64,000 nt of DNA. Source: Candidatus Kapaibacterium sp. Its GTDB lineage: Bacteria > Bacteroidota > Ignavibacteria > Kapaibacteriales > UBA2268. Positions 45,122 to 50,157 of this stretch are shown here, piece after piece (position 1 is the stretch's first letter; each line of letters begins with the position of its first letter). The notes under the pieces were generated by a model. It was not told the DNA's origin, did not search any database, and saw only the letters and a list, made by a program, of their open reading frames with translations. The translations under genes and the position numbers were made by a program. The stretch is from positions 1-64,000 of the forward strand of contig CALBDO010000013.1 of the NCBI GenBank assembly GCA_937927515.1, given 5' to 3'.

Positions 45122-45499
45122 ATGGATTTGTTTGCTATTCGAGAATATTGTCTTTCGAAGCCCTTTTCAAAAGAAGATTTACCTTTCGACGAGGATACCC
45201 TTGTCTTTAAAGTTTTCGGACGAATGTTTGCTTTGTTGGATATTTCTTCAAATCCACTTTGGATAAACTTAAAAGCGAACCCAGAGGATGTAGTTGAACT
45301 TTGTGAAAGATTCGATTTCATCCGCCCAGGTTATCATATGAACAAAAAGTATTGGATTACAGTAGAGATTGTGAACGAGATTTGCGATGCTTTTTTATTT
45401 GAATTGATAGACAATTCTTATTTGGAGGTTACTAAAAAGCTTCCAAAATATCAACGTGAAATAATTAACAAGGCTATAGAAAATGGCAATTTCAAATGA
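45122..45499 (+). CDS. MmcQ/YjbR family protein
   Basis: The 125-residue protein has the compact double-wing fold of the MmcQ/YjbR family, with the pattern FGRMFALLDI, WINLKANPED, FDFIRPGYHMNKKYWITVEI. Members are small cytoplasmic proteins, sometimes described as DNA-binding-like, but no biochemical role is firmly established. It is the first gene of an apparent six-gene operon; its 3' end overlaps the kinase-like gene by 17 bases. This makes it a candidate regulator or accessory protein of that unit. Confidence 0.85.
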   Translation: MDLFAIREYCLSKPFSKEDLPFDEDTLVFKVFGRMFALLDISSNPLWINLKANPEDVVELCERFDFIRPGYHMNKKYWITVEIVNEICDAFLFELIDNSYLEVTKKLPKYQREIINKAIENGNFK

Positions 45500-46496
45500 T
45501 AAGGAAATACTTGTTGAGAGAATAAAAGAACTTGTAGGTTGGAATGTAAATCCCGCGAGGCTCAAAATTCATATCGATACAACCGATTGGATGAGAATTG
45601 TCCGTGGGGATATAATTAGATTATCCTGTGGCGATTATCTTGTAAAGGGTAACATGCGGGAGCCAAGATTTGGCATCGATGACCAACCAAAGTACTGGGT
45701 TTTTAGTGCGGTGGACCTTCGGGATGGTAGCGAGAAAATTGTTAAAACAGTATTTCACGAGGAATTTTATGCGCACATTGGTATATTGAGAATTCGTTGT
45801 TATCGAAATCCAGTCAAGGAAGGCGAGGTATTAAAATTGGTGAAAGGGGATAATAGATTTATGCAAGGGTTTGTTTGTAACGACACAATGGGGAATGCAG
45901 TTAGAGTAGTTGATTTCATAAAGGGAAAATCGTTCTTTCAGTATATTCCTCTTATTGAGAAAAGCCACGAAGAATATTTTTACGAAGACTTGCCAAATAT
46001 TTTGTGGAAATTAAGAGAATCTTTTTTAGCAATTCAATTTCTCCACGAAAATAGGTTCTGTCATGGGGATATACGAAACGACCATATAATTGTGGAGTCT
46101 GGAACGGGAACCTATCGTTGGATTGATTTCGACCTTATGCAAGATGTCTCGGATTTTGATTTGTGGAGTTGTGGAAACATACTTTCCTATGCGGTAGCGA
46201 AAGGATTGAAGACATTCGACCAAGTTTTAAAAGGCAGCGAATTCAGTGATAAAGTGAAGTTAAGTTTGACCGCAGAGGATGCCTCTGCTTTCTATAACTA
46301 TAGAATAATGAATTTAAAAAAGTTATATCCTTATATTCCAATAAAACTAAATAATATCCTTCTTCATTTTACGATAAAGCCAATAGAATATTATGGTTCT
46401 GTTAAAGAGTTTATAGAGGATTACTCCGAAATGTTGGAGGCAACTTTTCCTATGGTAGCAACAGATTCCAAAGAAAGCAATGGTAGTGCAAAATGA
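45483..46496 (+). CDS. Kinase-fold protein (Ser/Thr kinase- or aminoglycoside kinase-like)
   Basis: The 337-residue protein has the C-lobe hallmarks of the protein kinase-like fold: a catalytic loop CHGDIRNDHIIVE (H194-G-D196) and a metal-binding loop WIDFDL (D215-F-D). These replace HRD...N and DFG of classical kinases, so the closest relatives may be atypical or APH/Rio-type kinases. An N-lobe lysine candidate lies in KIVKTVFHEE; I cannot confirm it. It is probably cytoplasmic. Its stop overlaps the histidine kinase start (ATGA), strongly suggesting coupled translation and a joint role in signalling. Confidence 0.8.
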   Translation: MAISNDKEILVERIKELVGWNVNPARLKIHIDTTDWMRIVRGDIIRLSCGDYLVKGNMREPRFGIDDQPKYWVFSAVDLRDGSEKIVKTVFHEEFYAHIGILRIRCYRNPVKEGEVLKLVKGDNRFMQGFVCNDTMGNAVRVVDFIKGKSFFQYIPLIEKSHEEYFYEDLPNILWKLRESFLAIQFLHENRFCHGDIRNDHIIVESGTGTYRWIDFDLMQDVSDFDLWSCGNILSYAVAKGLKTFDQVLKGSEFSDKVKLSLTAEDASAFYNYRIMNLKKLYPYIPIKLNNILLHFTIKPIEYYGSVKEFIEDYSEMLEATFPMVATDSKESNGSAK

Positions 46497-48328
46497 AAGC
46501 TATTATTATCGGTGGTGGCAAGGGTTGTTACGCTATTTTGAAGTTGCTTCGAGAGCGACCGATAAAAGAACTCAATTTGCAAGTTGTTGCTGTTGTTGAT
46601 ACAAATCCAAATGCAGAAGGATTTCGCTATGCAAATGAATTAGGATTGCTTACCTTCTTTGATTACAAAGAGGCTTTAAAGTTACCCGATATAGAGGTAA
46701 TTATAGAATTGACTGGAGATGATGAATTTGTCAGACGATTAAAAAAAGAATTGACCCCAGAGATAAAATTAATTGAACACTCAATTGCTCATATATTTTG
46801 GGATTTAATGTATGCACACGAAGAGCTCGACACTAAAATCCGTGACTTAGAACGACTCGAGAAAATCGTTGAAGATGACAACGTGTTTTTGAAGTCTATC
46901 TTCGACAGTTTTCAAGACTTAGCAGTGGTGATGGATGGTGAGCATCGAATAACAAGAGCAAACAAATCTTTTTGCGATTTCGTTGGTATGGAAGAAAAAC
47001 AAATTATTGGGAAATCTTGTTGCGAAGTTTTGGAAAATACAGTTTTGGGATGCGATAAAAATGAAAGAAAAAATATTGACAATTGTATTTACCAAACACA
47101 TAAACCATATTTCATGATATATGTATCACCACCACCACAAGAGACTTACTGGGAAGTGACACACTCTCCAATTTTCGACTCGAAAGGTAATGTTAAATAC
47201 ATACTTACAAATTGGCATAAAATTACCGAGCTTGTATACTTAAAGAGGGAAGTTGAAACACTCGAACAGAAACTTAAAAGCTTTATCAACAATGCTCAAG
47301 ATTGGATTAGTATGAAAAATCTTAATGGCGAGTATATACTTGTAAATCCAGTCATTGCAAAGGCTTTTGGAAAAAAGCCAGAAGATTTTATAGGTAAAAG
47401 ACCAGAGGATGTCCTCCCACCAAAAATTTCTCAAACGGTAAAACTTCATGATGCAGAAGTTCTTAGAACTGGAAAGCCAATGTTATACAACGAAACAATT
47501 ATGCTTAATGGCGAAGAACATTATTTTCGAATGCTTCGCTTTCCTTTAACAGATAGCCAAGGAAAAGTCATTGGAACCTGTACTATCGGAAGGGATGCCA
47601 CAAATGAAGTCCATTTAATGGAAAAATTGATTCAAAGCGAAAAACTTGCTGCTTTGGGTAAACTTGCTGCTGGTGTTGCCCATGAAATTAATAACCCTTT
47701 GACTGGTATACTTTCGTACGCCGAAAGTATTTCCGAAGAGCTGGACAAAAACCATCCTCTACAAGAAGACATAGCGATAATCATTCGCGAGACTCTTCGG
47801 TGTAGGGATATAGTCAGAAATTTATTAGATTTTGCAAAGCAATACACTCCCAAATTTGAAGTAGTGGACCCAAATTTTATAATTCAACAGTCTTTAGATT
47901 TGGTTCGCCGTCTGCCCCAATTTAAAGACATAGAAATCAAAGTAAATCTTGCCGAAAAGATTCCAAAGATAAAAGCTGATGTCAAGCAAATTCAGCAAGT
48001 AATATTAAACTTTTTAATAAATGCTGCCGATGCAATGAAGTACAGAGGCGAAATAATTATTTCAAGTGAGTACTATCGTCAACAAAAGAAATGTATTATT
48101 TCGGTGGAGGACTCCGGTCCCGGTATACCAGAAAATCTTATGGATAAAATATTCGAGCCGTTCTTTTCCACTAAAAGCACAAGTGGGCTTGGACTTGCGG
48201 TAAGTTGGGGTATAATTGAAAGACATCACGGAACAATCGAAGTGGACACTGCTAGTTCTGGGGGTGCAATATTTAAAATTGTTCTTCCCGCTTATTTTGA
48301 GCTAGAAGGAAATGAGTTGGAGTTATAA
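46493..48328 (+). CDS. Sensor histidine kinase with Rossmann-like N-terminus and two PAS domains
   Basis: The 611-residue protein lacks a signal peptide and membrane helices, so it is a soluble sensor. Residues 1-~110 begin KAIIIGGGKGCYAILKLL and continue VVAVVDTNPNAEGFRYA, a dinucleotide-binding-like Rossmann pattern. PAS domains follow at ~145-265 (FQDLAVVMDGEHRITRANKS) and ~270-385 (DWISMKNLNGEYILVNP). The HisKA phosphoacceptor is His397 in AHEINNPLTG. The HATPase has NFLINAADAM, DSGPGIPE and GLGLAVSWG (N, G1, G2 boxes). It sits between the kinase-like gene and the response regulator and is probably its cognate kinase. Confidence 0.9.
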   Translation: MKAIIIGGGKGCYAILKLLRERPIKELNLQVVAVVDTNPNAEGFRYANELGLLTFFDYKEALKLPDIEVIIELTGDDEFVRRLKKELTPEIKLIEHSIAHIFWDLMYAHEELDTKIRDLERLEKIVEDDNVFLKSIFDSFQDLAVVMDGEHRITRANKSFCDFVGMEEKQIIGKSCCEVLENTVLGCDKNERKNIDNCIYQTHKPYFMIYVSPPPQETYWEVTHSPIFDSKGNVKYILTNWHKITELVYLKREVETLEQKLKSFINNAQDWISMKNLNGEYILVNPVIAKAFGKKPEDFIGKRPEDVLPPKISQTVKLHDAEVLRTGKPMLYNETIMLNGEEHYFRMLRFPLTDSQGKVIGTCTIGRDATNEVHLMEKLIQSEKLAALGKLAAGVAHEINNPLTGILSYAESISEELDKNHPLQEDIAIIIRETLRCRDIVRNLLDFAKQYTPKFEVVDPNFIIQQSLDLVRRLPQFKDIEIKVNLAEKIPKIKADVKQIQQVILNFLINAADAMKYRGEIIISSEYYRQQKKCIISVEDSGPGIPENLMDKIFEPFFSTKSTSGLGLAVSWGIIERHHGTIEVDTASSGGAIFKIVLPAYFELEGNELEL

Positions 48329-48330
48329 AT

Positions 48331-49107
48331 ATGCTCAATGACAAAGTCAAAATTTTGGTGATTGATGATGAACAAATCATATTAGATAGCATAAAAAGGA
48401 TTTTAAAAAAAGAAGAAGCCTACGAAGTGGAAACCGCTTTATCAGCCCAGGAGGCTTTGCAAAAGCTTCCAGTTTTTTTGCCAAATATCATTCTTACAGA
48501 TTTAATGATGCCCGAAATTGATGGTTTAGAACTGCTTAAAAAAGTGAAAGAAATTAACGACAAAATTTTTGTAATTATGATTACTGGTTATGCAACTATT
48601 AATACCGCTTTGCAAGCAATGCAACTTGGTGCTTTTGATTATATCGCTAAACCATTTACACGCGATGAACTCCGCAAAGTGATAGAGCGAGCCGCAAGTT
48701 TAGTTTCTGCCCAGACAAATAGCGAAGGTAAGTCCCCATTGCAAAATGAAATAATAAGCAACATTCAGGGTATAGGTCAGTATTCCTGGCTTATGATGAA
48801 TGACGAGGGTTTAGTTGTTTTAGGGGTAGAAAGGGCTGTGTTATACTCGGTAGGCAAGATTCAAACTGTTTACTTGCCTTCAGTTGGAGATGAGATTCGC
48901 CAAGGAAGTGTCTACTTTCAGATATTTTCCTCCGACTTAAGAACACAATCTATTTTCTCTCCCCTTTCTGGAATTGTTGTAGAAGTCAATGAAAAAGTAT
49001 TAGAAAATCCTGAAATTGCTGTCTTAGACCCCTATGGAGAGGGATGGCTTTTGAAAATAAAGCCTTACAATTTTGAGGAAGATATGAAAACTTTAGGACT
49101 GCTTTAG
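48331..49107 (+). CDS. Response regulator fused to a degenerate GcvH-like domain
   Basis: The N-terminal ~120 residues are a normal receiver domain: acidic pair D12-D13, phosphoacceptor Asp57 in LTDLMMPEIDG, and TGYATINTALQAM, with Lys in YIAKPFT. After a short linker, residues ~145-258 resemble glycine-cleavage H protein (YLPSVGDEIRQGSVYF, SPLSGIVVEVNE, DPYGEGWLLKIKP). The lysine that carries lipoate in GcvH (ESVKAAS) is replaced; the aligned segment reads SSDLRTQS, with Leu203 at that site. There is no DNA-binding domain. It follows the histidine kinase by 2 bases, so it is likely its partner. Confidence 0.9.
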   Translation: MLNDKVKILVIDDEQIILDSIKRILKKEEAYEVETALSAQEALQKLPVFLPNIILTDLMMPEIDGLELLKKVKEINDKIFVIMITGYATINTALQAMQLGAFDYIAKPFTRDELRKVIERAASLVSAQTNSEGKSPLQNEIISNIQGIGQYSWLMMNDEGLVVLGVERAVLYSVGKIQTVYLPSVGDEIRQGSVYFQIFSSDLRTQSIFSPLSGIVVEVNEKVLENPEIAVLDPYGEGWLLKIKPYNFEEDMKTLGLL

Positions 49108-49110
49108 AAA

Positions 49111-50157
49111 ATGAAAGAAGCTCTTCTGTATGAAAACATTGATAGCGACACGAAAGAGGTAATCTGCAAACTTTGTAGTCATTATTGTAAAATTAAAAAC
49201 GCTCGTGGTGGAATTTGTCGGGTGCGCTTCAACCATGATGGTACCTTGTTCTCGTACACATATGGTAAAGTCGATGGATTTGCCGTCGACCCAATAGAAA
49301 AAAAGCCATTTTACCATTTCAAACCAAAGTCTAGAGTTTTATCTTTTGGTACCCCTGGTTGCAATTTTAAATGTGCCAATTGCCAAAATAGTTACCTTTC
49401 CCAATCAATAAAATTAAAGCCCGAAGCATTGCTAACTCAAAATGTTTTTCCGCCAGAGAGAGTTGTGGAGTTGGCAGAAAAATACGCCGTGGATGGAATT
49501 TCTTATACCTACTCCGAACCTACGATTTTTTTTGAATATGCAAGAGACATAATTTTAAAGTGCAAGCAAAATAATAATACTAAACATCTTTTTCATGTAT
49601 TTGTTTCGAATGGCTATTTTAGCAAAGAAATGTTTGAAATTGTAAAAGCAGAAAAATTATTAGATGCTATTAACATAGATTTGAAGTTTTTTGATGACCA
49701 AAAATATTTAAAGATTACCGGTGGACATCTCAAGCCTGTTTTAGAAAATATTGAAAGAGTTTTCGACGCAAATATACATATGGAAATTATCAACTTAGTT
49801 ATTCCTGGTGAAAATGACAATGAAGAGAGCTTTGCAAGAGTGTCGGAGTTCGTTTCCAGTCTTTCAAAGGATATCCCTCTTCATTTTAGTAGGTTCTTTC
49901 CACAGTACAAAATGACAGACAAATCCTCAACTCCATATAAAACTCTTTTGTTCGCAAGGGACATAGCGAAAAGTTTTGGTCTTAATTATGTTTACATTGG
50001 AAATACCGATTTAATTGACGCAGAAAACACACATTGTCCTAAGTGTAATTATTTGGTAATCCAAAGACAAAGGTACTTCACCGATGTTAGGTATTTAGAT
50101 TTGGAAGGAAAAGCTGTATGCCCAAATTGCAAAGAAACTTTGCCAATTATTGTGTAG
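49111..50157 (+). CDS. amrS: AmmeMemoRadiSam-type radical SAM enzyme
   Basis: The 348-residue protein has a [4Fe-4S] motif GCNFKCANC (Cys84, Cys88, Cys91), spaced CxxxCxxC as in radical SAM enzymes, with upstream cysteines in CKLCSHYCKI and GGICRVRF. The order of motifs (VDGFAVDPIEKKPFYHF; SFGTPGC; GISYTYSEPTIFFEYARD) matches the AmrS family. A C-terminal CPKC...CPNC pair forms a probable zinc ribbon. The partners AmrA and AmrB (AMMECR1 and MEMO) are not in the window. It lies 3 bases after the response regulator gene. Confidence 0.9.
   Translation: MKEALLYENIDSDTKEVICKLCSHYCKIKNARGGICRVRFNHDGTLFSYTYGKVDGFAVDPIEKKPFYHFKPKSRVLSFGTPGCNFKCANCQNSYLSQSIKLKPEALLTQNVFPPERVVELAEKYAVDGISYTYSEPTIFFEYARDIILKCKQNNNTKHLFHVFVSNGYFSKEMFEIVKAEKLLDAINIDLKFFDDQKYLKITGGHLKPVLENIERVFDANIHMEIINLVIPGENDNEESFARVSEFVSSLSKDIPLHFSRFFPQYKMTDKSSTPYKTLLFARDIAKSFGLNYVYIGNTDLIDAENTHCPKCNYLVIQRQRYFTDVRYLDLEGKAVCPNCKETLPIIV

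Follow-up and report, generated by a model that had tools for sequence, protein, structure and literature searches.

A response regulator ending in a GcvH-fold domain that lacks the lipoyl lysine, and its association with a kinase-like protein and sulfur genes in a Kapaibacterium and its relatives

Introduction

Response regulators are usually interpreted through their output domain, and an H-protein (GcvH) output without its cofactor has no assigned function. Such an output raises the question of what a fold built around lipoate might do in signalling, and on which partner it might act. The case considered here is an open reading frame with an ATG start at 48331-49107 on the forward strand of a contig of Candidatus Kapaibacterium sp., of which a stretch of 64,000 nucleotides (the window) was analysed. 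It encodes a protein of 258 amino acids (the regulator). A preliminary description took it for a receiver fused to a GcvH-like domain that has lost its lipoyl lysine, and suggested that a lipoate carrier had become a signalling output, possibly a partner of lipoyl-linked enzymes.

The full-text literature searched, a coverage outside which subscription journals lie, describes no receiver-GcvH protein, and the family of such regulators is apparently undescribed. The combination is visible in Pfam architecture lists, and we do not claim priority for it.

Results

Domains and fold of the regulator

The regulator has two domains. Residues 8-118 (48352..48684, forward strand) match the Pfam family Response_reg (E 1.1e-30), and residues 150-253 (48778..49089, forward strand) match GCV_H (PF01597; E 9.2e-20; score 71 bits, cut-off 22). 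The C-terminal part also matches 13 solved H-proteins in a phmmer search, with E values from 2.7e-14 for the best of them (2ka7) to 6e-07. An AlphaFold2 model was made from nine homologues (mean pLDDT 84; the linker, residues 133-143, is poorly predicted). By Foldseek its N-terminal side matches receivers and its C-terminal side matches the H-proteins of E. coli, mycobacteria, Thermotoga and human (E ~4e-11, TM normalised by target ~0.79); solved complexes of H-protein with LplA and LIAS are among the matches. The matches of a second structural search were taken up by receivers and bear on that domain. A chance match or a different fold for the C-terminal domain, the latter considered in the preliminary description, is ruled out by Pfam, phmmer and Foldseek, and the proposed fusion of a receiver with an H-protein fold stands.

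The receiver is intact, with D12, D13, D57, T85 and K107 invariant across the nine homologues. A DNA-binding domain was found neither by Pfam nor in the model or its Foldseek matches, the GcvH fold occupying the output part. Compared with GcvH, the regulator has the same fold and most of the structural motifs (SPLSG, DPYGEGWL, the conserved W and G). However, it is fused to a receiver, does not lie beside gcv genes, and scores 63 bits for the gcvH equivalog TIGR00527, below the cut-off of 115.85. A normal lipoyl-type GcvH is encoded on another contig of the genome (C15; 160 bits, EAVKT around the lysine), so the H-domain of the regulator is a paralogue and not the sole H-protein.

Loss of the lipoyl lysine

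The hairpin that carries lipoate in GcvH was compared across 77 aligned H-fold domains, 22 of them canonical GcvH. The lysine column holds K in 22/22 canonical proteins and Leu (L203) in the regulator. The E-x-V-K lipoylation loop is replaced by the hairpin tip F199-S-S-D202-L203-R204 (48925..48942, forward strand), in which E has become F, K has become L and one residue is inserted, making the hairpin one residue longer than that of GcvH. In this alignment no lysine is present within FQIFSSDLRTQS of the regulator. A lysine hidden by misalignment, which the preliminary description had named as an outcome that would overturn its reading, is ruled out, as the loop is without lysine wherever the extra residue is placed.

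The loss is not confined to the window. In the immediate family, which comprises 16 members from Bacteroidota and Zixibacteria, the lysine is absent in 16/16; most have Leu at this position, and Met, Tyr or Phe occurs in one each. Nearly all keep F-S-x-D-[LM]-R at the hairpin, F199 and D202 being kept and R204 nearly always. The family is also invariant, with residues other than those of GcvH, at E167-R168, Q178, D187, R190 and Q197. Among relatives dN alone was used, because dS is saturated between them and dN/dS is not usable. Against close relatives dN is 0.06-0.12 for the GcvH part and 0.12-0.20 for the receiver, the H-domain thus being the slower of the two. The family-wide absence of the lysine, the family-fixed residues and the low dN of the H-domain together indicate that the loss is old and that the domain is still in use; recent decay or a pseudogene is ruled out by the conservation in 16 members and by the constraint on the H-domain. 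To this extent a lipoate carrier turned signalling output, as first suggested, is borne out, the loss being both conserved and constrained. The hairpin does not stand out as the best-conserved segment of the domain: 33 of 107 segments along the domain are as conserved, and the hairpin is only modestly above the average.

Other lysine-less H-folds

H-folds without the lysine are also common outside the window family, where they are found as receiver fusions, as receiver fusions with a membrane anchor, and as membrane-anchored proteins of ~230 aa that end in a QDGG...FFL tail. In a tree, all lysine-less domains lie on one side of canonical GcvH (support 97/85). The receiver fusions without a membrane anchor form one clade (98/96), within which the window type, including its Zixibacteria members, is a subclade (100/99). 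When the hairpin columns are removed the arrangement is nearly the same, with one row crossing and the support for the regulator branch falling to 60. The deepest row of the lysine-bearing side is an archaeal GcvH-like protein from Candidatus Methanoperedens (L042), with ESAKWVGG around the lysine.

The operons of these other lysine-less H-folds also encode a Tat-type ferredoxin, NrfD, a multihaem cytochrome of class III and a histidine kinase whose sensor part has CxxCH motifs. In other Bacteroidota (L127-L133) a six-gene operon encodes the Tat ferredoxin, NrfD, the multihaem cytochrome, the CxxCH-sensor kinase, a receiver-GcvH protein and a membrane-anchored receiver-GcvH protein. These receiver-GcvH proteins, together with L068 and L041, share domain order, length and the longer hairpin with the window family, and belong with it to the one clade. 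Unlike the window type, they go with a HAMP membrane kinase bearing a CxxCH sensor motif and are followed by a second, membrane-anchored receiver-GcvH protein, and their hairpin motif is not conserved. The membrane-anchored lysine-less proteins (L039, L043, L046, L048, L049, L055, L058, L072) lie in or near clusters of ferredoxin, NrfD, histidine kinase and NtrC genes, in Desulfobacterota, Myxococcota, Acidobacteriota, Gemmatimonadota and other hosts. As a set they are apparently unnamed. The first seven of these share with the regulator the side of the tree away from canonical GcvH, and many share histidine kinase or response regulator neighbours with it, but they have an N-terminal transmembrane-like segment, the QDGG...FFL tail, no receiver and a hairpin one residue shorter. 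In the window the neighbours of the regulator are histidine kinase, kinase-like and radical-SAM genes, and the gene is not in an NrfD/ferredoxin operon. Since an NrfD-ferredoxin-cytochrome set has the make-up of DsrP-DsrO-DsrJ, both branches of the lysine-less family may point to one kind of respiratory complex.

Upstream partners

The regulator is the third gene in a row, after a kinase-like protein and a histidine kinase. The histidine kinase (46493..48328, forward strand; 611 aa) looks cognate: 2 nt separate its stop codon from the regulator ATG. By Pfam, profile search and model it has an N-terminal Rossmann domain, two PAS domains, HisKA and HATPase, and both sequence and models predict a soluble protein. 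Residues 1-120 match no Pfam family. A profile search relates the N-terminus to acylating acetaldehyde dehydrogenase (E 0.0016), and a model (pLDDT 89) matches by Foldseek the dehydrogenase subunit of the acylating acetaldehyde dehydrogenase complex (E 7e-05), which is the closest solved fold. The N-terminal part of that subunit is an NAD-binding Rossmann domain. The segment at 46493..46855 on the forward strand, with the motif IIGGGKGC, is accordingly assigned as a predicted NAD-type Rossmann domain, whose fold suggests that the kinase may sense NAD. The histidine kinase lacks the Rossmann domain in G004 (L117) and G018 (L125). The NAD domain may go with the full sulfur pathway, as G004 is without AprA and DsrP and G018 is without DsrP.

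The kinase-like protein (45483..46496, forward strand; 337 aa) overlaps the start of the histidine kinase by 4 nt. It falls below the Pfam Pkinase cut-off and has profile matches to protein kinases, e.g. titin kinase (7e-06). Sequence comparison finds a candidate ATP-site lysine (K88), the HGD loop (HGDIRNDH) and an Asp at the DFG position (IDFD). The Asn position of the catalytic loop HGDIRNDH is His.

The three genes stand side by side in G015, G022 and three Zixibacteria (L036, L037, L038), as they do in the greater part of the window genus. Elsewhere the module is scattered: over three contigs in G009, and with histidine kinase and regulator apart in G011. The radical-SAM gene that follows the regulator (49111-50157) and the later genes are not counted as parts of the module, because they are conserved only within the genus. 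In six genera (L118, L119, L120, L123, L124, L125) a protein of 381-393 aa with an InsA zinc-ribbon start and a transposase-like body is encoded close downstream of the regulator, in four of the six directly after it; the window genus has no such protein there. It looks like a domesticated element.

Co-inheritance with the kinase-like and sulfur genes

Co-occurrence was scored in 60 related genomes, of which 12 have the regulator and 48 do not. The kinase-like gene is present in 11/12 of the former and 0/48 of the latter (Fisher p 3.5e-11), often on another contig. AprA is found in 9/12 against 0/48, and a DsrP-type NrfD, scored as at least 67% identical to DsrP of the window genome, in 8/12 against 0/48. 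AprA and/or DsrP are present in 10/12 against 0/48 (p 9e-10, and p 4e-07 when restricted to the family), although these counts are not independent, comprising up to 6 contrasts, of which only 1 is on well-supported branches of a FlgI tree. On that family tree, six changes are needed to account for the regulator, and in most contrasts AprA/DsrP move the same way. The sulfur proteins score well above their cut-offs (AprA 907/642, DsrP 466/350, DsrO 321/200, DsrJ 137/100 bits), and AprB and Sat were also identified. As a control, FlgI is present in 10/12 regulator genomes and 35/48 others (p 0.71), which rules out motility as the linked process. NrfD in general is uninformative, being present in 53/60 relatives; only the DsrP subtype tracks the regulator.

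Sulfur genes do not adjoin the regulator in most genomes, and this holds for that of the window. In G029 the order on one strand is the 3' end of the histidine kinase, the regulator, the InsA-zinc-ribbon protein, sat, aprB, aprA, a YkgJ-like protein and, at the end of the stretch, the first part of qmoC. In Zixibacteria aprA is present in 4/4 genomes with the window-type regulator, which gives only p ~0.02 because the background of the phylum is 50/132. It is also present in Bacteroidetes WY4.bin46 and in one Sumerlaeota genome, and is absent from both genomes with the sister-type regulator (L041, L068). G004, which belongs to the window genus, and G010 keep the regulator and the kinase, and neither AprA nor DsrP was found in them; the sulfur pathway is therefore not a strict requirement of the module. 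The link to sulfur is correlative, with few independent events. It rests on apr/sat/dsrP-type genes and is compatible with either direction of the pathway, reduction or oxidation.

The window genome has flagellar, apr and sat genes and five NrfD proteins. In it, sat-aprB-aprA lie near a molybdoenzyme/ferredoxin/NrfD cluster (L173, G000:C6:22000-38000), and other contigs carry a lone DsrP gene and two clusters like alternative complex III. A predicted sulfate reducer with flagellar genes is described among the Kapabacteria in a passage of PMC6338057. The window genome may be of that kind, which we offer as a lead. The passages on sulfate reducers of Kapabacteria and other phyla returned by the literature search do not mention the regulator.

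Discussion

The sequence of the regulator suggests a response regulator with an unusual output that probably binds protein. RssB-type response regulators join a receiver to a non-DNA-binding domain and act by binding a client. The same principle would hold here, except that the output fold is that of an H-protein and not their adaptor. We tentatively propose, at somewhat less than an even chance of being right, a two-component module that acts by docking on a protein and which tunes sulfate respiration to the NADH state through proteins, not promoters. The histidine kinase would read the NAD(H) state or a PAS signal and would phosphorylate D57 of the regulator. Phosphorylation would expose or orient the H-protein-like domain, which might then dock on its client with the hairpin tip F-S-x-D-L-R as a binding surface in place of the lipoate arm. 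The client would most likely be either the co-inherited kinase-like protein, giving a relay from His-Asp to Ser/Thr phosphorylation, or a component of sulfate respiration (Sat/Apr/Qmo or the DsrMKJOP complex of the membrane). The control is placed on proteins because the regulator has no DNA-binding domain, and the net effect would be sulfate respiration matched to the NADH state of the cell. The more specific form, a non-transcriptional cascade in which an NAD-sensing histidine kinase signals to a Ser/Thr-type kinase by way of the lipoate-less H-protein regulator, controlling dissimilatory sulfate reduction post-translationally in at least two phyla, we consider doubtful.

Other clients, or none, have to be weighed against docking on the kinase-like protein or the sulfur enzymes. 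The module may act more generally on redox or membrane respiration through electron-transfer complexes of the NrfD type or others; the link to sulfur would then exist only because these lineages use such complexes for sulfate. The sister proteins lie in NrfD/ferredoxin/multihaem-cytochrome operons with CxxCH kinases in Bacteroidota, Myxococcota and Acidobacteriota, and in L041 and L068 without aprA; the window genome has its five NrfD proteins, and the module persists in G004 and G010 without AprA/DsrP. These points fit the broader role. However, it is the DsrP subtype and AprA that follow the regulator among the relatives, not NrfD at large, and we regard the broader role as fairly unlikely. 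The preliminary description offered lipoyl-linked enzymes as one possible partner, and in this it was not upheld. In such a scheme the domain would mimic unlipoylated H-protein and, depending on phosphorylation, bind lipoate ligase or synthase or the T-, P- or L-protein, as competitor or scaffold. Unlipoylated H-protein is the natural substrate of lipoyl-handling enzymes, the fold is right, and a canonical GcvH is present in the same genome. Yet the loop that they recognise is altered in the regulator at E and K and by an added residue, and no gcv or lip gene was noted adjoining any family member. Nearly all the relatives have canonical GcvH, whether or not they carry the regulator, so it does not explain where the regulator occurs. 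None of the lipoyl or glycine-cleavage genes was seen next to the regulator or its relatives; the kinase-like gene, the NAD-domain histidine kinase and sat/apr/dsr are co-conserved instead. A lipoyl-enzyme partner is thus improbable. LbpA of the sHdr sulfur-oxidation pathway has the lipoylated lysine as its mark, which is absent in the regulator.

It is also conceivable that the GcvH-like part binds no client. As a passive scaffold for dimerisation or stability it would leave the signal to phosphotransfer from the receiver, or to the kinase-like protein acting on the receiver. That protein is the most faithful companion of the regulator, sister families carry many different hairpins on their lysine-less H-folds, and the hairpin is conserved only a little above the rest of the domain, all of which a scaffold would accommodate. 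A scaffold would not be expected to conserve residues found in this family only (E167-R168, D187, R190-Q191, F199-S-x-D202-L-R204) nor to evolve more slowly than the receiver, and we judge this role quite unlikely. The near-invariance of D202 and R204, with a conserved S/T in the loop, would suit a hairpin that bears another covalent modification or a small ligand, the domain still being a carrier. We know of no cofactor that attaches to such a motif, and no modifying enzyme is linked to the family besides the putative kinase-like protein; a carrier of this sort is very improbable.

If real, the cascade that leads to a Ser/Thr-type kinase would be a circuit controlling sulfate respiration post-translationally, with the H-protein fold made into a phospho-gated docking domain. 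One odd gene has become a testable family with fixed partners, and attention is drawn to a wider, apparently unnamed set of H-proteins that lack the lysine and belong to respiratory operons in several phyla. If the link to sulfur is true, the regulator would be a candidate for the redox tuning of the pathway in sulfate-respiring bacteria outside the well-studied groups.
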